This document shows, piece after piece, positions 2,570 to 63,358 of a DNA stretch of 64,000 nt. The DNA comes from Pedobacter endophyticus. GTDB taxonomy: Bacteria; Bacteroidota; Bacteroidia; Sphingobacteriales; Sphingobacteriaceae. Within the stretch, counting starts at the first letter, position 1. Every line of letters begins with the position of its first letter. The translations under genes and the position numbers were made by a program. The stretch is from NCBI RefSeq assembly GCF_015679185.1, contig NZ_CP064939.1:372001-436000 (forward strand). The letters run 5' to 3'. The notes below the pieces were generated by a model that did not search any database, had not been told where the DNA came from, and saw nothing but the letters and a program-made list of their open reading frames with translations.

Positions 2570-2666
2570 GCTTCAGGTAGTGTTTAAATTTATGCAAATA
2601 TAACAGAAAAAATAAATCCTTGAACTGAATATAGCAAATTAGAGTGATTCTAAAACGGGCGTGATA

Positions 2667-2696
2667 TTTGTTAATTAGAAAAATCTGATATTTTTG
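2667..2696 (+). promoter_or_regulatory. Bacteroidota-type promoter of the phytochrome operon
   Basis: TTTG at 2667-2670, an 18-bp spacer and TATTTTTG at 2689-2696 match the Bacteroidota housekeeping consensus (TTTG, about 19 bp, TAnnTTTG). Transcription would begin near 2703, about 11 bp before the ATG at 2714. Confidence 0.65.
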
Positions 2697-2713
2697 TAAG
2701 ATCTTATCTTATT

Positions 2714-4927
2714 ATGACTAAATTTTCCGTTGACTTAACCAATTGCGACAAAGAGCCCATCCATATTCCGGGGAAAGTTCAATCGCACGGTTTCTTAATT
2801 GCCGTTAACAAATCTAGCTTTAACGTTTCTTACGCGAGCGAAAATATAATCAACTTTCTACAGCTTTCGGCAGCAGATGTTTTGGATAAACCTATTGGTG
2901 TGCTGTCCAGCCACATTAACCAACAAGAGCCCGATTTTAATGTTGCCGATCTCCTCAAACTTGGCCTCGTAAAGAAAAGTTTCGATGCCATAAGCCCTTA
3001 TCCGCTGGAAATTAATGGAAACCCGTTTTACTTGATTATCAACGCGTCGCAAAACGACTGGTTGCTCGAGTTTGAGCCCGTTACCTTGCAGTACGATATA
3101 CAGAGTTTGGTTGGCAGGTCTGCTTCATCCATGTTGCAAGGCAAAAACGTATTGGCCTTACTTAAAGGGGCAGCCAAAGAGGTTAAAAACCTGATCAGTT
3201 ACGATCGAATTATGATTTATAAGTTCCAGGATGATGGACACGGGGAGGTAGTGGCCGAAGAAAAGGAACAAAACCTTGAACCATTTTTCGGTCTTCATTA
3301 TCCTGCATCCGACATTCCGAAACAGGCGAGGGAGTTGTATAAATTAAACCTTACCAGGTTAATTGCCGATGTAAATACCGAGGCTTCGCCCATTTTGACT
3401 TTTAAAGAGGATGAGCCGCTGGATTTAACAAGCGGTGGTTTGCGTGCGGTTTCGCCCATCCATATCCAATACCTCAAAAATATGGGTGTTCGCTCTAGCT
3501 TCAGCATTTCGCTGATTGCGAATGGGGAACTTTGGGGGCTAATTGCCTGCCACAATTACAGTCCAAAATTTATCGACTTTAAAGCCAGGGAAGGGGCCAA
3601 GCTCATTGGCGAAATCCTTTCATCGGCACTGGAGTATCGGCAGGCCGAAGAAGATTCTGAAACGGTTGAACTGTTTAAAGATACCGCAAGCGTGCTTTCC
3701 GAGCATTTAAACAGAGATAAATACTTACTCGATGCACTTACAGGCCACAACAGGTCGCTATTAGAGGTAACAAAGGCTGCTGGTGTGGCTATTATTTTTG
3801 AGGGCACTTTGAGAACGATCGGTATCGTACCCGAAGAAAACGACATTTGGGAGCTTGCCGAATGGATAAAGGCCAATAGCGACGAATCGATCTATTACAC
3901 CCATCGGTTATCAGAAATATTCGGTGCAGCGAAAAAATATAAAGAGGTGGCATCGGGCATACTGGCTTGTTCGGTGAGCAAAAACCCTAATGAGCTCATT
4001 ATCTGGTTTAAGCCAGAACAAATTTCAACTGTAAACTGGGCCGGAAACCCCGAAAAACCTATTGCTACGGCAGAAAATGGCCTGCAAAGCCTATCGCCAC
4101 GAAAATCGTTCGAAATCTGGTCTGAGGTGGTAAATAATACCTCTGAAAAATGGTTGCCCGAAGAGATCACATCGGTGCTCCGCATTCGCGAAATTATCGT
4201 TACACACATTAATAAAAAGGCCAACGAAATCAGGCTGCTCAACGAAAAACTACAGGCTGCCTACGAAGAACTCGATACTTTTAGCTACACCATATCGCAC
4301 GATTTACGAACGCCGCTGACCTCGATAAAAACCTATGCCGAATTAATGTTGAAAAATAAAAGCATTGATGAGAACGGAAGGAAGATGTTAAGTCGTATAT
4401 TAACAGGTGCCGATAAAATGAATTTTCTGATTAAGGAAATCCTGCACCTGGCAAGGGTTGGCCGATCGGAAATCAATTTCGAAACCGTTAACATGCAAGC
4501 CTTGTTAAAAGAAATTGAAACCGAGGTGTGGTCGGCTTTTAAAGCAGACAAGGCCGAACTTATTTTAGGCCAATTACCTGATTTGAGGGGGGATAAAACA
4601 ATGATTAACCAGGTATTTACAAACTTGATCAGCAACGCTGTAAAATACTCATCGATGGTTGCAGCGCCCACAATTGAAGTTTCGGCAACGGTTGATGCCG
4701 GTGAAACGGTATATGCCGTAAAAGATAACGGTATGGGAATTGATAATCGTTATTACGACAGGGTTTTTGAGCTTTTTAAGCGGATGGACAATGCAAGAGA
4801 CATTGAAGGAACAGGAGTGGGGCTGGCTATTGTAAAAAGAATTGTAGAAAGGCACAACGGACGAGTATGGTTTGAGAGTAAACTGAACGGTGGATCTACT
4901 TTTTATGTAGCTTTTAAAAACAGATAA
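2714..4927 (+). CDS. bphP: bacteriophytochrome sensor histidine kinase
   Basis: 737 aa with the classic order PAS (about 15-125), GAF (about 145-310), PHY (about 325-500), HisKA and HATPase. Cys11 in LTNCDKEPIHIPG is the biliverdin-attachment cysteine of bacteriophytochromes. The GAF domain has PASDIP at 197-202 and H280; the PHY tongue has WFKPE and WAGNP. H529 in SHDLRTPL is the phospho-acceptor; the ATPase shows NLISNAVKYS, DNGMGID and GTGVGLAIVKR. It senses red/far-red light through biliverdin. The response regulator follows after 2 bp and heme oxygenase 76 bp further on, a complete light-sensing cluster. Confidence 0.95.
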   Translation: MTKFSVDLTNCDKEPIHIPGKVQSHGFLIAVNKSSFNVSYASENIINFLQLSAADVLDKPIGVLSSHINQQEPDFNVADLLKLGLVKKSFDAISPYPLEINGNPFYLIINASQNDWLLEFEPVTLQYDIQSLVGRSASSMLQGKNVLALLKGAAKEVKNLISYDRIMIYKFQDDGHGEVVAEEKEQNLEPFFGLHYPASDIPKQARELYKLNLTRLIADVNTEASPILTFKEDEPLDLTSGGLRAVSPIHIQYLKNMGVRSSFSISLIANGELWGLIACHNYSPKFIDFKAREGAKLIGEILSSALEYRQAEEDSETVELFKDTASVLSEHLNRDKYLLDALTGHNRSLLEVTKAAGVAIIFEGTLRTIGIVPEENDIWELAEWIKANSDESIYYTHRLSEIFGAAKKYKEVASGILACSVSKNPNELIIWFKPEQISTVNWAGNPEKPIATAENGLQSLSPRKSFEIWSEVVNNTSEKWLPEEITSVLRIREIIVTHINKKANEIRLLNEKLQAAYEELDTFSYTISHDLRTPLTSIKTYAELMLKNKSIDENGRKMLSRILTGADKMNFLIKEILHLARVGRSEINFETVNMQALLKEIETEVWSAFKADKAELILGQLPDLRGDKTMINQVFTNLISNAVKYSSMVAAPTIEVSATVDAGETVYAVKDNGMGIDNRYYDRVFELFKRMDNARDIEGTGVGLAIVKRIVERHNGRVWFESKLNGGSTFYVAFKNR

Positions 4928-4929
4928 AA

Positions 4930-5349
4930 ATGAAAACGCCAGATATATTTTACGTAGAAGATGATATAGACTATGCTTTTTTTATGCAGAGTGCTGTACA
5001 AGAGGTGCGACAAACATTAAATTTAACCATTGTAGAAGATGGGAGAGAGGCTTTATTGAAATTGCAAAATTTTGCAGATACCAAAACGAAGCCTAAACTT
5101 ATTTTGCTCGATTTAAACCTGCCGGGTTTATCCGGTCTTGATTTGCTTAAATTTATTAAAGACATTCCCTACTTAAAGGGGATTCCGGTAATCTTATTCT
5201 CCACTTCCGATAACCCTGATGATGTTAAAGCATCGATAGAATTTGGGGCAAATGCCTATTTAACCAAACCGGACGGTTACGATAATCTGGTTAAATGCAT
5301 CCACTCGGTACACGACTTTTGGTTTAACCAGCACTTGCGATTAAATTAA
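4930..5349 (+). CDS. phytochrome-partner response regulator (Rcp1-like receiver)
   Basis: 139 aa, receiver domain only: acidic E10-D11-D12, phospho-acceptor D61 (LILLDLNLPGLSG), a T/S position in LFSTSDNPDD and the KPDGYDNL loop. This slightly long receiver with a C-terminal aromatic tail (DFWFNQ) resembles the Rcp1 class that partners phytochrome kinases. It starts 2 bp after the kinase stop, so it is almost certainly cotranscribed and probably translationally coupled. It lacks an output domain, so the downstream target is not visible here. Confidence 0.9.
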   Translation: MKTPDIFYVEDDIDYAFFMQSAVQEVRQTLNLTIVEDGREALLKLQNFADTKTKPKLILLDLNLPGLSGLDLLKFIKDIPYLKGIPVILFSTSDNPDDVKASIEFGANAYLTKPDGYDNLVKCIHSVHDFWFNQHLRLN

Positions 5350-5367
5350 AAAGTCTCCACATTTTTT

Positions 5368-5398
5368 AAAAATTCGGATTTTTCAATTCGAATTTTTT
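5368..5398 (+). terminator. AT-rich hairpin between response regulator and heme oxygenase
   Basis: Perfect 9-bp arms AAAAATTCG (5368-5376) and CGAATTTTT (5389-5397) run into more T residues. This could be a weak terminator or attenuator that lowers heme oxygenase expression relative to the kinase. AT-rich, so only moderately convincing. Confidence 0.4.
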
Positions 5399-5425
5399 GT
5401 TTTAAACCTAATTAGAAAAATATAC

Positions 5426-6019
5426 ATGATTGCCAATTTACTGAAAACTGCAACGTCCGAGCGCCACAACGAGCTCGAATCGCTAATGTTTGTTAACAAC
5501 ATTATGAACCACACGTTGAGTGTAGCTGATTATAAGAAACTGTTGACCATTAATTATATTATACATCAAAAACTCGAAAATAACCTCGCCAATATGCTCG
5601 ATGCCGATATTGCTGAACGATTGGAAATGAGCGAACGGTTAAAGCTTGGTGCGCTGGAAAAAGACCTCGATTATTGGCAGATTGATACCCTTACTTTGCC
5701 GGAGCTAAACTTTGATTTGTTCATCCCCAAAAAAAATAATGCAGCGGTGCTTGGCGCCCTTTATGTGCTTGAAGGCGCTACATTGGGTGGTAACGTTATA
5801 AAAAAACATATTCTGGCCAATAAAAATTTTGAAGGCCATGAAGCAGGTTTAAACTATTATGGCGTGTATGGCGAAGCGCTTGGAGCCAAATGGAAAACTT
5901 TTGTTTCCCTACTGAATGAAACGGTTACCGAGGCCGATTATGAAGTGTGCATCGACAGTGCAAACCAAACATTTAACAACCTGATCAGCTTGTCAAAGCA
6001 GCTCGCGGAGGCGGTATAA
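5426..6019 (+). CDS. bphO: biliverdin-producing heme oxygenase
   Basis: 197 aa. LLKTATSERHNELE places His14 as the likely proximal heme ligand, and GALYVLEGATLGGNVI is the distal-helix motif of bacterial heme oxygenases (LYVxEGxxLGG). The enzyme opens heme to biliverdin, CO and iron. Biliverdin is the chromophore that the neighbouring bacteriophytochrome binds at Cys11, so the gene completes a self-sufficient photoreceptor cluster. It starts 76 bp after the response regulator, with a weak hairpin in the gap. Confidence 0.9.
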   Translation: MIANLLKTATSERHNELESLMFVNNIMNHTLSVADYKKLLTINYIIHQKLENNLANMLDADIAERLEMSERLKLGALEKDLDYWQIDTLTLPELNFDLFIPKKNNAAVLGALYVLEGATLGGNVIKKHILANKNFEGHEAGLNYYGVYGEALGAKWKTFVSLLNETVTEADYEVCIDSANQTFNNLISLSKQLAEAV

Positions 6020-55722: not shown

Positions 55723-56805
55723 TTACAAAGTAACCACCTGCCCCGTCTTTACCGATTCATCGCAAGCAAACGCAATCTTCAAACTATTTATCGCATCTTC
55801 CGTTGCCTGGTTTAAATCCAAATCTTCGTTCATGGCCTTTAAAAAGAAACGTTGTTCGCGGTTACAAAGTTCCTGATGATCGGGTTCATCTTGCAAATCC
55901 AAATATTCGTCAGGGCTTAAGAAACAGTCGTCATCGTTTAAGGCTGCGTGATGGATTTTAATCGATTCCGTTTTGGTATGCGAATCAATGTCATCAGAAT
56001 TACCGGCTTGTGATGCTTTTTTGGCAACTATGGAAACGGCTCCCTTCGGACCAAAAACATCCTTGATAAAAAAAGCATTATCACTTACCATCGGGCCCCA
56101 GCCGGCTTCGTACCAGCCAATAGAACCATCGGCGAACCGAATTTGCAGCTGGCCGTAATTGTAGTTCCATGCAGGAATATCATCTGTTAGCCTTGCACCG
56201 ATGGCACTTACCTGAACGGGCTTCGAGCGGGTCATCTGGCACATTACATCGATATAATGTACGGCGCAATCTACAATCGGGCTTAAGCTTTTCATTAAAT
56301 TACGGTGAACCGTCCATTTTGCACCCTGACTTTGCTGGTTCAGGTTCATGCGCATAACCAGAGGCTTACCCATTTGTTGTGATAATTCTATAAACTTCTC
56401 CCACGAGGGATGGTAACGCAATATATACCCGACCACCAGCTTTTTATTTGCTTTCGTTGCCGCCTCAGCCACCCGAACGGCACCCTCAACGGTATCAGCC
56501 AAAGGTTTTTCAATAAATACATGACACCCTTTTTCGAATGCCTGCACAGCAAACTCCTCGTGTGTATCAGGGTAAGTAGAAATACAAACCGCATCAGGTT
56601 TGGTGGCCTCCAGTGCTTCATTGTAATCGTTAAAAAGTGTATAGCCGCCACCAAGCCGCTGGTTCAGTACCACCTTGCTGTTGCCGGTTGAGACCAGACC
56701 ACAGATCTCAAAACCGGGCAAAGTGTGATATGCCATCGCGTGAGACGCACCCATATTGCCGCAACCGACAACCAGCACCCGTAAATTTTTATTTGTATTT
56801 AACAT
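55723..56805 (-). CDS. Gfo/Idh/MocA-family oxidoreductase (cytosolic)
   Basis: 360 aa from the ATG at 56805 (MLNTNKNLRVLVVGCGNMG); the open frame begins earlier at a TTG. The Rossmann motif GCGNMGASH, the EKPLAD motif with the conserved Lys and a C-terminal beta domain define the family, which interconverts sugar or sugar-acid hydroxyls with NAD(P). No Tat signal, unlike the two related genes upstream in the cluster, so it would act in the cytosol. It lies 105 bp downstream of the next family member. Confidence 0.92.
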   Translation of the reverse strand: MLNTNKNLRVLVVGCGNMGASHAMAYHTLPGFEICGLVSTGNSKVVLNQRLGGGYTLFNDYNEALEATKPDAVCISTYPDTHEEFAVQAFEKGCHVFIEKPLADTVEGAVRVAEAATKANKKLVVGYILRYHPSWEKFIELSQQMGKPLVMRMNLNQQSQGAKWTVHRNLMKSLSPIVDCAVHYIDVMCQMTRSKPVQVSAIGARLTDDIPAWNYNYGQLQIRFADGSIGWYEAGWGPMVSDNAFFIKDVFGPKGAVSIVAKKASQAGNSDDIDSHTKTESIKIHHAALNDDDCFLSPDEYLDLQDEPDHQELCNREQRFFLKAMNEDLDLNQATEDAINSLKIAFACDESVKTGQVVTL

Positions 56806-56910
56806 GAGGTCAATATCGTTATCATTTTTGTACAAGGCGTTTTAGCCAATTTATAATCATCAATTATATTAAACGCTAATTTAACTTAGCTGCGCAATAC
56901 CCTGTAGCTT

Positions 56911-58362
56911 TTAAACACCCAGACTCCAGCCCGCACGGTATTCGCGTTTTACAAACTGGTTTACCTCGTCGAAGTTGGTTACCCGTAAATTTTGTTTATC
57001 CCATAAAAGCTTGATGTCCCTCCCCGGGTAGGTAAAACCCTTGCCGTCTGCTTTAGGTTTTTGCACATCCGTACCCCGAATAGCCAGGTTCGCAATTAAC
57101 AGCGTTTCAGTAACCGGGCCGGCAATTTCGAAAGGCGAGCTCAGCTGAATTTTTCCATAGCCCGCAATAGCAGCCTCTGCCCATTGCCAATAATGCCCAT
57201 CAACACCACCCTTAACCCGTTCAATTTTTGGTTTAACATGTACCTCGTTCGTTCGCGATAGGGGCAATAATCGTGGGTTTGCACCATAAACGTCGCACAT
57301 CATCTTTCCCTTTGTTCCCTCAAACAACACGCCGTTGGCGCCGAAGCTTTCGTTCGGGCCCAGTTCTTCGGGACGGGCAGGTTTAATTCCTCCGTCCATC
57401 CAATGGATCTGCAAGTTGCCTTTCGTCTTCTTTGTTTTCTCAAAAGTAAGAATGACATGGCTCGATGGCGGACAACTATCAGGAAAATAGCCTCTTTTAA
57501 ATTCGTCTACATAAATGCTTCCAACGCTACACTGCACATCAATCGGTGTGTCCAATCCCAAAACCCGGATAGGTGGTTCGATCAAATGACAACCCATATC
57601 GCCAATGGCGCCTGTTCCGTAATCCCACCAGCCCCTCCAGTTAAATGGAACCAATTTTTCTACGTACGGTTTATAGGGAGCACTACCCAGCCATAAGTCC
57701 CAATCCAGTTCCGGAGGCACATTTCCGCCGGTAGAAGGCCACAAAATGCCTTGCGGCCACGATGGGCGATCAGTCCAGCAGTATACCGTGTGCACCTTGC
57801 CAATGATACCCGCATTGCACCAGTCTTGTAACTGCCTTACGCCATCGCCCGATGAACCCTGGTTTCCCATCTGCGTTACCACCTGGTAGCGGTTAGCGGC
57901 TTCAGTGAGTTTACGTGCTTCGTAAATGTCGTGCGTTAAAGGCTTTTCTACATACACGTGTTTACCCATTTGCATCGCAGCCATGGCAATCATGGCGTGG
58001 TTATGATCGGGAGTTGAAACCACCACGCCATCGATGTTTTTGTGCTCTTTTTCGAGCATCACACGATAATCTTTGTAATATTTTGCCTTTGGGAAGCTCT
58101 TTACCGAGTTGGCCGCCCTCCTATCATCAACATCACACAAAAATGCAATGTCCGATTTACCGCCTTTGTAAATATTGGCCAGGTTGCTTTGTCCCTTGCC
58201 CCCTACGCCCACGCCAGCAACCATTAACCGATCGCTGGGTGCCAAAAACCCCTTGCCTAACACGTGGCGGGGCACAATCATAAATCCTGCGGCTGCAAGG
58301 GCCGTCGCTTTAATAAAGTTTCTTCTTGACTTGGAGTGCAATGATTCTTTTGTCTGTTCCAT
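56911..58362 (-). CDS. Gfo/Idh/MocA-family oxidoreductase with Tat signal (1)
   Basis: 483 aa. RRNFIKA at 13-19 plus a hydrophobic segment (ALAAAGFMIVP) is a twin-arginine signal, so the folded enzyme with its bound NAD(P) would be exported. GVGVGGKGQSN gives the cofactor fold; EKPLTHDIYEAR carries the conserved Lys; GGWWDYG-like and GDMGCHLIEP resemble the metal-free oxidoreductases often found with DUF1080 proteins. Oxidises a sugar at the cell surface or periplasm, by family analogy. Part of the 56-63 kb cluster. Confidence 0.93.
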   Translation of the reverse strand: MEQTKESLHSKSRRNFIKATALAAAGFMIVPRHVLGKGFLAPSDRLMVAGVGVGGKGQSNLANIYKGGKSDIAFLCDVDDRRAANSVKSFPKAKYYKDYRVMLEKEHKNIDGVVVSTPDHNHAMIAMAAMQMGKHVYVEKPLTHDIYEARKLTEAANRYQVVTQMGNQGSSGDGVRQLQDWCNAGIIGKVHTVYCWTDRPSWPQGILWPSTGGNVPPELDWDLWLGSAPYKPYVEKLVPFNWRGWWDYGTGAIGDMGCHLIEPPIRVLGLDTPIDVQCSVGSIYVDEFKRGYFPDSCPPSSHVILTFEKTKKTKGNLQIHWMDGGIKPARPEELGPNESFGANGVLFEGTKGKMMCDVYGANPRLLPLSRTNEVHVKPKIERVKGGVDGHYWQWAEAAIAGYGKIQLSSPFEIAGPVTETLLIANLAIRGTDVQKPKADGKGFTYPGRDIKLLWDKQNLRVTNFDEVNQFVKREYRAGWSLGV

Positions 58363-58630: not shown

Positions 58631-61600
58631 CTACTTCTTCTTGCTCAAATCCTTAATGCGGATATTCCTAAACTGTACAAAAGAGCCGTGTCCTAAAAAG
58701 CCGATATGCCCACTGTTGCGTAATAGGCCCGGATGTTCCTTTCCATCTGCTGCCCCGTTTTTACGAGCTTCGGTAATATCGCCATCTAAAATGACCTCGC
58801 CATTTAAAATCACCTTAATTTTCGGCCCTTTAACAATTACTTCCTGGTAGTTCCATTCGCCCACTGGCTTAAGAAAACCCCTTTTTGCAGGCAGCGTACC
58901 ATACACTGAGCCATGATATTGATACACATGCAGGTTTTTATAAATTGGTGCATCGTTATCCAAAATCTGTAGTTCCATTCCCGTATAAGCGGCATCGCCC
59001 GCTAACGGTGCACGAATGCCCAAACCATTGTTTGCGCCGGGGGTGAGCTGAAATTCAAACCGGAAGATAAAATCACTAAATTCATCTTTGGTAAATAAAT
59101 TGCCACCAGAGCCCTTGTCGGGCTTCGGTCGAATGGCGATGTTGCCGTCTTCAATCGAATAATCGACCGTGTTCCCGGTCCATTGATGCATATTGGTGCC
59201 GTCGAAAAGGACTTTATAACCCTCTTTCTTTTCGGTTGCACTCAATTGGAAGGGTTTAACCCGCGGCAGTTCACGAATGTAAATATCGCGGTAAACCACC
59301 GGCGAACCGTGTGCCTGCAGTTCAATCTGCTCTTCGGCAAAAATCGGTAAATTTCTGTCCCAGTAGTTCTCTAAGATGATATTGTCTGTTACCAGTTCGC
59401 CGTTAAGGTAGACGGTCACCCGATCGCCTTTCATCAGTATTCTAAAGGTATTCCATTCGTCAATTTTGTTGTCAGCTACCTTTAACGGTTTGCTTTCGTT
59501 CACTTTATTATTGTATAAACCGCCCGAGCCTACCTGGGCGCCAACGTTGGTGCGGGCATTGTCCCAAATTTGTACCTGCGGTGTCCCGCGAAGGTATATT
59601 CCCGCGTCTCCCTCACCTTTTTTGTCGTCAACAATTTTCCAATCAACCAACATCTCAAAGTCGCCATATTTTTTCACCGTTGCCAGGTTGTTTCCTTTGC
59701 CCACGAAATGAAGCTCGCCATTAATGGGTTTCCAGCTTTGCTGCGCCTCGGCATCTGCCTTTTCTTGTTCGGCAGCAAGGGTTTTTGCATCCATTTTCGA
59801 GCGCTTAATCGGGTCGGCCACTAAACCCTTCCATCCCGTTAGGTCGGTACCATTAAAAATGGATACGAACCCTTCTCCCGGGTTCATTTCGTTGATGTAT
59901 TTGCGCATGCCTTCTTTTTGGTAGCCGCTATCAGGCCCTGTTATTACGGCAATGGCTTTGTTTAACAGGTTTTTAACCAAATCGCCATTATACGTTCCGG
60001 AAAGGGTAATATTCATCACAGACTGTGCTGCGGCTTGCTGCAGCGCAGGATCATCGAGGTATTTGCCGGAAAAAACGAGCGAATTGAAACACTTGGCTTG
60101 CGCTAAATCAGTTAAGATTTGCTGCTTTTGTCCGTCCGTCTGCGCCACGTCCATCGCATTGCGAAGCATCAGGAACTTTTGTTCTGCAGTTGCATTGCTT
60201 GTTCGGATCTGTTTTAGATATCCCTCAATCGCCATCGCTAAAAAAGACGGATTCTTTGTCTGTCTTGCAATCGCGATCAACGCCGCGGATGCTGTGGCAT
60301 CTTTCCATGCTGCAAGGGCTTCAATAGCTGCTTTCTGCGTAGTTTCGTTTCCTGCTTTATAAGCATCGGTCACTGCGGTGAGCGACTGGTTGCCGCCCAG
60401 ACTCGCCAAAACTTTGTAAAAAAGCGCCTTCTTTTTTTCAGGAGCCGTGTTCATCTGCGCCAATACAATTTCAACGGTTTTTGTACTGTCGCCGCTATTT
60501 ACAGCAGCAACCAGCGCCTTTTGAACGGCAAGTTCATCGGCGCCGGTACTCTCATTCAGCAGATTGAACAGCTGTGGAAGATTATCGCTTATGGCCACCG
60601 AACTCAGTGCTGCGTAGGCCGCTGTTCTCACTTCGGGATGCGTATTTTTTAATTGTGCATAAACGGCTTCCAACTGTACGTTTGCAGCCCGAGACGCCAG
60701 CAAATTCAGCAATACAATTTGAGTACTGGGCTTCGATGACGGAATGGCGGCGGCAATTGGTGCGGTAATGTCGGTGCCTTTCATGCGTTTTATGGCATCT
60801 GAACTGGCCTGAAGCGTCGTAGAGTCAGCATTTTTCATTAATTTCAGTAACTTGCTCAATACTTTATCCTGACCGATGCTTACGGCTGCATCAATTGCAG
60901 CAAGTTTTACTTTGGGATTTTTGTTGTTGAAGTGTTTAACTATTGCATCGAGCGCCTGCCCGGCCGGTACTTTACCGAGGGTGTTTATGATATCGGCTTT
61001 TACCTCATTGCCGGCCTTGTTCATGGTATTAACCCAGGCAGCGGTATTGCCACCTTTAATATAGGGTATTGCAAAAGCCAAAGCAGCCTTGCGGTAACGG
61101 GGGTTGGCATCGGTAGCGGCGGTTAACAACAACTGCTGATTATCATCGGTGGCCTCAACCAACAATTTTAATGCAGCGATATGAACATTGATCATTTCTG
61201 CGGCATTCGTTCTTGTCCAAACGTCTTTTGCAATTTTTGAGGCAAGTTCTTTATTTCCGTTCTTAAGTTGTTGGTTCGCAAAAACGAGGTAGCTGCCTAC
61301 GGCGTTGGTGTTTTCGAATTTGTAGCCGGCTTTTTCTGTGGCTGCGGCCAGTGTTTTTTCCGAAGCGGGATCGGCTATGTAGGCCAAACTGTAGAGGGCC
61401 ATTTTAGCCAAGGCCGGATCTGCATCAGTGGCTAACGGGATTAATTTCTCTGCGGCTTTTTGATAACGGATGTCGCCCAAAGCTTCTACAATTGCAATGC
61501 GGGCATTTCCCTTTGCATTGCTTAATCCGTTTAAAAGTGTAACCTTGGCGTTTTCTGTGTTGATTTTTACCAAAGCCCGGGCTGCTACATCTGCAAGGAA

Positions 61601-62038
61601 ATCGTTGGCCAGGTAAGGCGCCAAGCAAGAAACGGCGTCGTCTTTTCCTACCAAATCGAACTGGCTGATTACAAATGCCCTGTTTTGAGGGTCTGTCAAC
61701 TTTTGTAGTGCTTTGCAATAGGCATTCACACTCATTTTACGGAGGCTCTCCTGGCCGGACTGACTTACATAGGCAGAAAAACCGCCAATTGCATATTCGA
61801 GCTGCGCATTGTTGCCTTTGCCGGCGGTTAAGCCCGTAATCAGTTGTACATAACCAGCTTCGCCAAGCGCTGCAATATCATCAATATTGTTTTTTAGCAG
61901 TTTAGCATCTTTGGCGGGCATCTGCGCAAGCAAATCGGCAATTCGCGTGGTTATCGTTCGTTGGTCTGCCTGCTCCTGGCTATAGGCCATGTGTTGAAGT
62001 GCGAACACCACGAGCAGGGCTAAAAATATTTTTTTCAT
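58631..62038 (-). CDS. secreted HEAT-repeat protein with two DUF1080 domains
   Basis: 1135 aa. Sec signal (MKKIFLALLVVFALQHMAYS). Residues about 25-715 are many helix pairs of HEAT/armadillo type (ALGDIRYQKAAEKLIPLATD, AALAFAIPYIKGGNTAAWVN, TAAYAALSSVAISDNLPQLF). Two DUF1080 (3-keto-disaccharide hydrolase/glycoside-binding, concanavalin-like) domains follow at about 721-925 (FVSIFNGTDLTGWKGLV) and 941-1135 (YKVLFDGTNMHQWTG). DUF1080 proteins in Bacteroidota cleave 3-keto-glycosides or bind sugars. It sits between two Tat-exported oxidoreductases on the same strand. Function inferred. Confidence 0.87.
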   Translation of the reverse strand: MKKIFLALLVVFALQHMAYSQEQADQRTITTRIADLLAQMPAKDAKLLKNNIDDIAALGEAGYVQLITGLTAGKGNNAQLEYAIGGFSAYVSQSGQESLRKMSVNAYCKALQKLTDPQNRAFVISQFDLVGKDDAVSCLAPYLANDFLADVAARALVKINTENAKVTLLNGLSNAKGNARIAIVEALGDIRYQKAAEKLIPLATDADPALAKMALYSLAYIADPASEKTLAAATEKAGYKFENTNAVGSYLVFANQQLKNGNKELASKIAKDVWTRTNAAEMINVHIAALKLLVEATDDNQQLLLTAATDANPRYRKAALAFAIPYIKGGNTAAWVNTMNKAGNEVKADIINTLGKVPAGQALDAIVKHFNNKNPKVKLAAIDAAVSIGQDKVLSKLLKLMKNADSTTLQASSDAIKRMKGTDITAPIAAAIPSSKPSTQIVLLNLLASRAANVQLEAVYAQLKNTHPEVRTAAYAALSSVAISDNLPQLFNLLNESTGADELAVQKALVAAVNSGDSTKTVEIVLAQMNTAPEKKKALFYKVLASLGGNQSLTAVTDAYKAGNETTQKAAIEALAAWKDATASAALIAIARQTKNPSFLAMAIEGYLKQIRTSNATAEQKFLMLRNAMDVAQTDGQKQQILTDLAQAKCFNSLVFSGKYLDDPALQQAAAQSVMNITLSGTYNGDLVKNLLNKAIAVITGPDSGYQKEGMRKYINEMNPGEGFVSIFNGTDLTGWKGLVADPIKRSKMDAKTLAAEQEKADAEAQQSWKPINGELHFVGKGNNLATVKKYGDFEMLVDWKIVDDKKGEGDAGIYLRGTPQVQIWDNARTNVGAQVGSGGLYNNKVNESKPLKVADNKIDEWNTFRILMKGDRVTVYLNGELVTDNIILENYWDRNLPIFAEEQIELQAHGSPVVYRDIYIRELPRVKPFQLSATEKKEGYKVLFDGTNMHQWTGNTVDYSIEDGNIAIRPKPDKGSGGNLFTKDEFSDFIFRFEFQLTPGANNGLGIRAPLAGDAAYTGMELQILDNDAPIYKNLHVYQYHGSVYGTLPAKRGFLKPVGEWNYQEVIVKGPKIKVILNGEVILDGDITEARKNGAADGKEHPGLLRNSGHIGFLGHGSFVQFRNIRIKDLSKKK

Positions 62039-62077: not shown

Positions 62078-63358
62078 TTAAATAGAAAAAGGTGCCCGCA
62101 TTACGGGATTAATTAATCTGTTGGCACCATCATCATCGATAAATTCTTGTTTTACCGGATCAAACTTCAACGAGCGCCCGAGTTTGAGTGCGATTAACCC
62201 CATGTTTACAATGTTGCACGATCGATGCCCGTTTTCTTCGTTCAGCGCAAATTTTTGGCGGGTCTTAACTGATTGCGTGAAATCGGTGATTTGCAGGGCC
62301 GGATCGGGAAAGGCCGCCAGTTTACGCTCCAAATCCGGAATATCCGACTTAAAACCGGGATATAGCTTTCCTTTTGGCCCTTCAATATAGGGTACGTTGG
62401 TGTCTTTGCCTTCGCCATCTAAAATAATTTGGCAACCATCTGCATAAGTGTAGGTAATTCTCCGCCAGGTACCTACGGCATCGGTGTGCTGCTGCGGCGC
62501 ATCTATTTCAACCGAAACCGGGCTGGTATCGTCTTTGCCCAAAAAGTATTGTATGGGGTCGATATAATGCTGGCCCATATCACTCAAACCGCCTCCGTCG
62601 TAATCCCAATAGCCTCTAAACGTGGTGTGAACGCGATGCGGGTTGTAAGGTTTGTATTGTGCGGGGCCGAGCCACATGTTGTAATCGAGTTCTGCCGGAA
62701 CGGGCTGCGGCGTGAGGTCGTCCTTTCCTACCCAATAAAACTTCCAGTCGTAGCCCGTGTGTTTGCCAACGGTTACTTTTAAAGGCCAGCCCAAAAGCCC
62801 GCTATCTACCAGTTTCTTAATCGGTTTTACGGTGGTGCCCATTCCATAAAAAGTATCTTTAAAGCGGAACCAGGTGTTTAATCGAAACATGGTGCCGTGC
62901 TTTTGTACAGCTTCTACTACCCTTTTACCTTCGCCAATGGTATGCGTCATGGGCTTTTCGCACCAAACATCTTTCCCTGCATTGGCGGCTTCTACGGCCA
63001 TAATGCCATGCCAATGCGGCGGAGTTGCGATGTGTACAATATCAACTTCGGGCAGTTTGAGCAATTCGCGGTAATCGCCAAAAGTTTTTACGCCTTTATC
63101 GAGCATCGCACTGGCTTGGGCCAAATGTCTGGTATCAACATCGCAAATGGCCACTACCTGGGTCCCGTCATAGCCGAAATGTCCTCTACCCATCGATCCG
63201 ACACCAATTACGGCCTTGGTTAGTTTATCACTCGGGGCAATAAAACCGGTGCCGCCCAGCACGTATCGCGGTACAATGGTAAATGCAGACAATGCAATTG
63301 CCGATTTCTTAATAAAATCCCGACGAGAACCGGAGTTTTCGGTTTGTTTAGTTTTCAT
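62078..63358 (-). CDS. Gfo/Idh/MocA-family oxidoreductase with Tat signal (2)
   Basis: 426 aa. RRDFIKK at 12-18 with AIALSAFTIVPRYVLGG is a Tat signal. GVGSMGRGHFG gives the NAD(P) fold, EKPMTHTIGEGK the conserved Lys; YWDYDGGGLSDMGQHYIDP resembles the second Gfo of the cluster. First gene of the 56-63 kb unit on the minus strand, 39 bp ahead of the HEAT-DUF1080 gene, so likely cotranscribed with it. Confidence 0.93.
   Translation of the reverse strand: MKTKQTENSGSRRDFIKKSAIALSAFTIVPRYVLGGTGFIAPSDKLTKAVIGVGSMGRGHFGYDGTQVVAICDVDTRHLAQASAMLDKGVKTFGDYRELLKLPEVDIVHIATPPHWHGIMAVEAANAGKDVWCEKPMTHTIGEGKRVVEAVQKHGTMFRLNTWFRFKDTFYGMGTTVKPIKKLVDSGLLGWPLKVTVGKHTGYDWKFYWVGKDDLTPQPVPAELDYNMWLGPAQYKPYNPHRVHTTFRGYWDYDGGGLSDMGQHYIDPIQYFLGKDDTSPVSVEIDAPQQHTDAVGTWRRITYTYADGCQIILDGEGKDTNVPYIEGPKGKLYPGFKSDIPDLERKLAAFPDPALQITDFTQSVKTRQKFALNEENGHRSCNIVNMGLIALKLGRSLKFDPVKQEFIDDDGANRLINPVMRAPFSI

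Follow-up and report, generated by a model that had tools for sequence, protein, structure and literature searches.

In a 64,000-nucleotide stretch of Pedobacter endophyticus DNA (contig NZ_CP064939.1, positions 372,001 to 436,000; the whole stretch is called the window below), the gene at 58631-62038 on the reverse strand encodes a protein of 1135 residues (aa) in which a long HEAT-repeat solenoid precedes two DUF1080 (PF06439) domains, here named DUF1 and DUF2. Our analysis suggests that this protein probably acts as a periplasmic 3-keto-glycoside eliminase/hydratase together with GfoA, a Gfo/Idh/MocA oxidoreductase encoded directly upstream, with the HEAT part serving as a tether. The parts, the chemistry and the tandem DUF1080 form (PDB 4jqt) are already known; what appears to be new is a protein that fuses HEAT to DUF1080 and has GfoA as its partner. 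A first-pass annotation of the window, made from sequence alone, had proposed a new architecture: as a sequence it is not new, with many public homologues, but no paper describing the fusion or its partnership with GfoA was found in the open-access literature, subscription papers lying outside the search. Papers are cited below by PMC number for the portions of their text available to us. One of them, PMC10434189, was tried as a HEAT-DUF1080-MocA precedent and rejected, as the three terms belong to different genes of one table in the available portion.

Domain architecture and pairing with GfoA

The gene is a single unbroken frame with an ATG start. PF06439 matches the protein at E=6.7e-82 in two stretches, each spanning positions 1-187 of the 187-position model (149 bits for DUF2 and 135 bits for DUF1 against a gathering score of 26.8), and HEAT_2 (PF13646) matches it at E=3.4e-26 in four stretches (91.8 bits against a gathering score of 27.7). 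A full-length AlphaFold2 model, built on an alignment of 21 sequences, consists of helical pairs from about residue 29 to 717 followed by two beta domains (mean predicted local distance difference test score (pLDDT) 83.5, predicted template-modelling score (pTM) 0.57), with the solenoid mostly at about 90 pLDDT. A tandem-only model of DUF1 and DUF2, built on 20 sequences, has a mean pLDDT of 82.4 and a pTM of 0.77. Among the structural matches listed for the HEAT part there are only generic helical repeats (Z 13.6-16.6, root-mean-square deviation (rmsd) 5.3-16), which give no functional lead.

These results bear out the roughly 690 residues of helical repeats and the two DUF1080 domains described in the first-pass annotation, and a Sec-like signal peptide read by eye at the N-terminus (MKKIFLALLVVFALQHMAYSQ) agrees with its description of the protein as secreted. 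Surface attachment, which it also suggested, gains no support: no lipobox was seen by eye in the N-terminus of the window protein, and no model of a type IX secretion system (T9SS) tail is among its NCBIfam matches. A lipobox pattern occurs in 4 of 46 homologues (L016, L017, L025 and L064; the N-terminus is missing in L024), but in the three from Chitinophaga it falls, in our judgement, within the hydrophobic core, so that only L064 is left; L109 and L110, relatives without DUF1, have lipoprotein-like N-termini by eye. The generalisation that DUF1080 proteins are as a rule short, with a single domain, holds only in part, given that the other PF06439 frames of this genome range from 256 to 850 aa, one of them (465 aa) carrying two copies, and that a tandem DUF1080 protein, BT3469, has a crystal structure (4jqt).

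The architecture is kept in 46 homologues, which excludes chance; with the window protein they form an alignment of 47 sequences, from which duplicate loci were dropped and partial and DUF1-less forms left out. In 45 of these 46 loci the next gene upstream, in the same orientation, is a GfoA relative, which is absent from the first-pass annotation; the remaining one (L024) is without upstream DNA. Because the HEAT protein served as bait in finding these loci, and many of them are related, the 45 cannot be counted as independent events; one of them (L035) has its GfoA frame split in two. In the reverse direction, GfoA used as bait (E<=1e-130) detected relatives in 15 of 395 genomes, the own genome included, and in 14 of the 15 a HEAT-DUF1080 protein adjoins: nine have HEAT-DUF1-DUF2, five have HEAT with a single DUF2-like domain (G205, G258, G226, G391 and G174), and one (G181) has neither. 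A further locus, L111:3798-8099, in the same-genus genome G012, places GfoA before a HEAT part fused directly to DUF2 without DUF1, in addition to the full-form copy (L038) that G012 carries; L112 is without upstream DNA. HEAT thus accompanies GfoA nearly always, DUF2 is present in every form seen beside GfoA, and DUF1 is optional. This loss of DUF1 while HEAT, DUF2 and GfoA stay was likewise absent from the first-pass annotation. As a separate observation, the same-genus locus L114:7785-9085 (G002) has a GfoA frame in two pieces, either a pseudogene or a sequencing error, beside a whole HEAT-DUF1080 frame.

The variant forms also bear on the role of HEAT. It may be a passive spacer, in which case the protein would be a normal DUF1080 enzyme that happens to have a long N-terminus and does not form a complex with GfoA; this is compatible with the chemistry that we favour and is a serious possibility, although we lean against it. 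The stretch ahead of the first DUF1080 domain varies from about 300 to 740 residues across forms, with protein lengths of 499 aa (L074), 554 aa (L108), 705 aa (L088) and up to 1171 aa, and conservation is confined to 21 of 689 HEAT columns, as a spacer would have it. On the other side, all DUF1080 variants found beside GfoA (L074, L088, L089, L090 and L107-L110) have a HEAT_2 match, although those of L074 (E=0.0023) and L088 (E=0.009) do not reach the cut-off, whereas three stand-alone DUF2-like proteins of 219-222 aa (L075, L076 and L077) lie next to a GfoB-like protein, the 12 kb read containing no close GfoA.

Conserved residues and fold of the two DUF1080 domains

DUF2 carries the strand motif E1022-L-Q1024-I-L-D1027 and a C-terminal H1117-G, and DUF1 carries Q821-V-Q823-I-W-D826 and Q908-A-H910-G. 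E1022, Q1024, D1027 and H1117 as well as Q821, Q823, D826 and H910 are identical in all 47 aligned sequences. DUF2 therefore keeps both the conserved Glu of the E-x-Q-x-x-D strand and the His, while DUF1 keeps the His and has Gln in place of the Glu. Because of this Gln, the two copies are probably not equivalent. The multi-substrate role suggested earlier is possible. Other DUF1080 proteins of the same genome have Glu at this position in all five cases with a pattern match; the pattern has no match in L008, L010, L011 and the first copy of the genome's tandem DUF1080 protein, which are unaligned. Columns at least 95% identical make up 21 of the 689 in HEAT, 92 of the 211 in DUF1 and 74 of the 203 in DUF2; relative to the window protein, the HEAT parts have a median identity of 42% (45 rows), the DUF1 domains 73% and the DUF2 domains 78% (46 rows for either domain). 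Judged by these columns and its median identity, DUF1 is well kept where present despite being optional. A loop of DUF1 (residues 821-850, window 59489-59578; QVQIWD...GSGGLYNN) is strongly conserved, yet forms the longest internal stretch below 50 pLDDT in the full model, and in the tandem model it coincides in part with the region of lowest confidence; a partner or ligand might order it, or the low score could be an effect of the shallow alignment.

Three eliminase/hydratase structures, 9fbe, 8rr2 and 8tda, align with the DUF2 part of the tandem model at Z 22.7-23.7 (209-210 residues, rmsd 2.8), and so does BT2157 of Bacteroides thetaiotaomicron (3osd) at Z 22.7 (rmsd 5.0 over 217 residues), the functional names being those of the structure titles (hydratase for 8tda, eliminase/hydratase for 8rr2 and 9fbe). 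The His of the Q-x-H-G motif in 8rr2 lies 14 residues ahead of the aligned end, which is chain position 264, and model residue 1132, one past the aligned Leu1131, pairs with structure residue 290, an offset of 25; by our own count the motif His is therefore residue 275. H1117 of DUF2 and H910 of DUF1, each His in 47 of 47 sequences, are by this numbering the equivalents of BT2157 His275. In a 3-keto-O-glycoside lyase of B. thetaiotaomicron, presumably BT2157, the H275N change is reported to make the enzyme deficient in hydration (PMC13273386).

The window protein thus shares with BT2157 the PF06439 fold, the His275 equivalent, the conserved Glu (in DUF2) and Gfo/Idh/MocA neighbours (BT2158 for BT2157). 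In contrast to the single-domain BT2157, it has two non-equivalent copies on about 690 residues of HEAT, and its partner GfoA scores far below the cut-off of the BT_2158 model. BT3469 (4jqt) likewise has two DUF1080 domains in one chain, the first with Gln at the conserved Glu position as in DUF1 (our own alignment reading), but its crystal chain of 431 residues has no HEAT stretch. BDI_3914 (4qhz), the best PDB sequence match of DUF1 (43 bits), is aligned to DUF1 in the full model at Z 17.2 and to DUF2 in the tandem model at Z 21.3; it is a single domain with Glu where DUF1 has Gln.

The same data allow a non-catalytic reading, in which the DUF1080 pair would be a glycan-binding or adhesion module on a HEAT stalk and GfoA would act alone. 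After the DUF1080 entries the next structural match is CBM66 (Z 16.6), with lectins further down (Z about 14-15), DUF1 is without the conserved Glu (Q821 in all 47 sequences), and HEAT length differs by hundreds of residues, all of which would suit such a module. We nevertheless consider it unlikely: Glu1022, Gln1024, Asp1027 and His1117 of DUF2 are kept in every sequence, DUF2 is closer to the eliminase/hydratases than to the listed binding modules, and a near-constant dehydrogenase partner suits a pathway better.

A GH16-like (glycoside hydrolase family 16) endo-hydrolase is very unlikely, although the Parabacteroides distasonis homologue WP_009275971.1 bears the product name 'family 16 glycoside hydrolase' and a DUF1080 endo-xanthanase, THTE_1561, reportedly hydrolyses xanthan and several beta-glucans (PMC10881899). 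An engineered 1,3-1,4-beta-glucanase is also among the structural matches (Z 14.7, 9% identity). The GH16 motif is E-x-D-x(x)-E, unlike the strand motifs E-x-Q-x-x-D of DUF2 and Q-x-Q-x-x-D of DUF1, and the dehydrogenase partner also speaks against a hydrolase. Membership of GH16 itself was rejected, with no GH16 Pfam match for the window protein at E<=1.

Proposed route and the points that weigh against it

From the observed domain content, fold, retained residues and gene pairing we infer a putative reaction, substrate, location, physical complex and division of the chemistry between domains, as follows. GfoA would convert C3 of a glycoside's non-reducing sugar into a ketone by oxidation, and DUF2 would catalyse elimination and then hydration of the 3-keto-glycoside; DUF1 may be a non-equivalent accessory copy for sugar binding or mainly hydration, and the HEAT solenoid may serve this pair of enzymes as a tether or docking platform. 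In Pedobacter, the downstream genes would supply a second periplasmic dehydrogenase (GfoB) and a cytoplasmic reductase (GfoC) that returns the 3-keto sugar to the parent sugar.

The proposed chemistry is drawn from the eliminase/hydratase structures and from the levoglucosan pathway LgdA-B1-B2-C, for which 3-dehydrogenation followed by elimination, hydration and reduction is established (PMC7676230). That pathway uses four separate enzymes, and no DUF1080 or HEAT protein appears in the available portion of its description. BT2158 is a periplasmic glycoside 3-dehydrogenase required for disaccharide use (PMC11300592), Caulobacter has a DUF1080 gene with an important role in lactose use, and BT2157 has been named a 3-ketotrehalose hydrolase (PMC9007349). 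Mn-dependent beta-eliminases of 3-keto-glycosides are also known (PMC10628242); by our own reading of the available portion they are unrelated to DUF1080.

In a stronger version, HEAT would dock GfoA beside the DUF1080 domains to form a periplasmic machine that channels the unstable 3-keto intermediate without release, DUF2 performing the elimination and hydration being shared with or moved to DUF1. We regard this as doubtful; if true, it would be a scaffolded form of non-hydrolytic glycan cleavage.

Several results count against the eliminase/hydratase assignment or its partnership with GfoA. The median identity of HEAT (42%) is low relative to the DUF1080 domains (73% and 78%) and to GfoA (76% to the window GfoA over 52 proteins), and this poor conservation argues against a tight specific docking surface or a specific HEAT-GfoA contact. 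On NF058561, the equivalog model of the BT_2158 glycoside 3-dehydrogenase with a cut-off of 750 bits, GfoA scores 158 bits, GfoB 461 bits and the Parabacteroides GfoA 140 bits; neither window protein is thus a certified 3-dehydrogenase, and their reaction is putative. None of ten DUF1080 genes of another Pedobacter strain had a lactose phenotype (PMC9007349). Finally, G181 has a GfoA with no HEAT-DUF1080 protein beside it, and L113, a shortened HEAT-DUF1-DUF2 protein outside the set of 46, has no GfoA upstream and has GfoB and GfoC downstream.

Since the oxidise-eliminate-hydrate-reduce route is known from separate enzymes, the HEAT-DUF1080 and GfoA pair points to an uncharacterised branch of it in Bacteroidota, and makes testable whether a complex forms and what keeps one DUF1080 copy constant while the other is optional. 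It also exposes a misleading GH16 name on at least one record of the family.

Gene neighbourhood, distribution and public records

The features of the cluster are collected in Table 1, where the residue ranges of DUF1 and DUF2 are our own conversion from the genome coordinates of the PF06439 matches.

Table 1 Features of the HEAT-DUF1080 gene cluster (positions in the window)
Feature	Position	Strand	Evidence
GfoA, Gfo/Idh/MocA oxidoreductase, twin-arginine translocation (TAT)-type signal, first gene of cluster	62078..63358	(-)	PF01408 75 bits, PF19051 488 bits
HEAT-DUF1080-DUF1080 protein, 1135 aa	58631..62038	(-)	Open reading frame, Pfam, AlphaFold2
N-terminal signal peptide (about residues 1-20), Sec type, without lipobox	61979..62038	(-)	Translation by eye; homologue N-termini
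HEAT solenoid, residues about 29-717	59888..61954	(-)	HEAT_2 E=3.4e-26; helices mostly pLDDT about 90; conservation in 47 sequences
DUF1, first PF06439 domain, residues about 723-922	59273..59872	(-)	PF06439 135 bits, 1-187/187
DUF1 Gln821 (in Glu position)	59576-59578	(-)	47/47
DUF1 His910	59309-59311	(-)	47/47
DUF2, second PF06439 domain, residues about 940-1129	58652..59221	(-)	PF06439 149 bits, 1-187/187
DUF2 Glu1022	58973-58975	(-)	47/47
DUF2 His1117	58688-58690	(-)	47/47
GfoB, Gfo/Idh/MocA oxidoreductase, TAT-type signal, BT2158-like, downstream gene	56911..58362	(-)	NF058561 461 bits; 321 bits to PDB 8tdf
GfoC, Gfo/Idh/MocA oxidoreductase, without evident signal peptide, last gene of cluster	55723..56835	(-)	PF01408 E=1.3e-25

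The four genes lie on one strand, with 39 bases between GfoA and the HEAT protein, 268 between the latter and GfoB, and 75 between GfoB and GfoC. Twin-arginine signals are seen by eye at the start of GfoA and GfoB and none is evident in GfoC, which is probably cytoplasmic. GfoA belongs to the Gfo/Idh/MocA oxidoreductases, with a Rossmann domain match and the EKP and D-x-x-x-H motifs significant in this group, and its EKP and DMGQH are present in 53 of 53 aligned rows. The best PDB sequence matches of GfoA and GfoB are 8tdf and 8tdh, dehydrogenases with entry codes near 8tda/8tde. Close GfoB relatives (>400 bits) adjoin homologues only in Pedobacter and same-genus loci, and GfoC follows GfoB in L013, L014, L015, L031, L113 and L114. 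Two same-strand genes 642 bases upstream of GfoA have N-termini that by eye resemble what we take to be glutamate synthase subunits. No RNA family reached its gathering score in the window; between 55400 and 64000, promoter-like sites are at chance level (14 found, 12.1 expected) and terminator-like sites slightly above it (17 against 11.5 expected, standard deviation 3.3), and neither was used as evidence.

A genome scan with the window protein yielded 20 loci, 18 of which cover the query essentially end to end, L024 and L032 being cut by contig ends. Near-full-length homologues occur in 19 of 35 other genomes of the same genus and shortened versions in two more (G015 and G028), with none in the 24 genomes of other genera in the same scan; of 395 genomes sampled across the phylum, 9, the own genome included, have HEAT with two DUF1080 domains. 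The homologue of the genus-mate G010 (L034) scores identically to that of Pedobacter rhizosphaerae (L015), in line with the placement of the window in Pedobacter. WP_009275971.1 is a full-length homologue (44% identity, 100% query coverage) with GfoA upstream. Its locus, unlike that in the window, has no adjoining GfoB or GfoC, and upstream lie genes for a SusD-type protein, an arylsulfatase and a further Gfo/Idh protein.

Three records stand apart. MT835835.1, a 16.8 kb 'Bacteriophage sp.' record from human faeces and perhaps a mislabelled bacterial contig, carries a full-length homologue at 2653-5991 (33.6% identity, 100% coverage). L012 (NZ_OY725779.1), a 375 kb Parabacteroides 'plasmid' record, has upp, murB and HU genes beside the HEAT-DUF1080 cluster and may be a piece of chromosome. 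L082:5806-9582 is a further large DUF1080 architecture, a single frame of 1258 aa with PD40 repeats, an amidohydrolase domain and, at the C-terminus, DUF1080.

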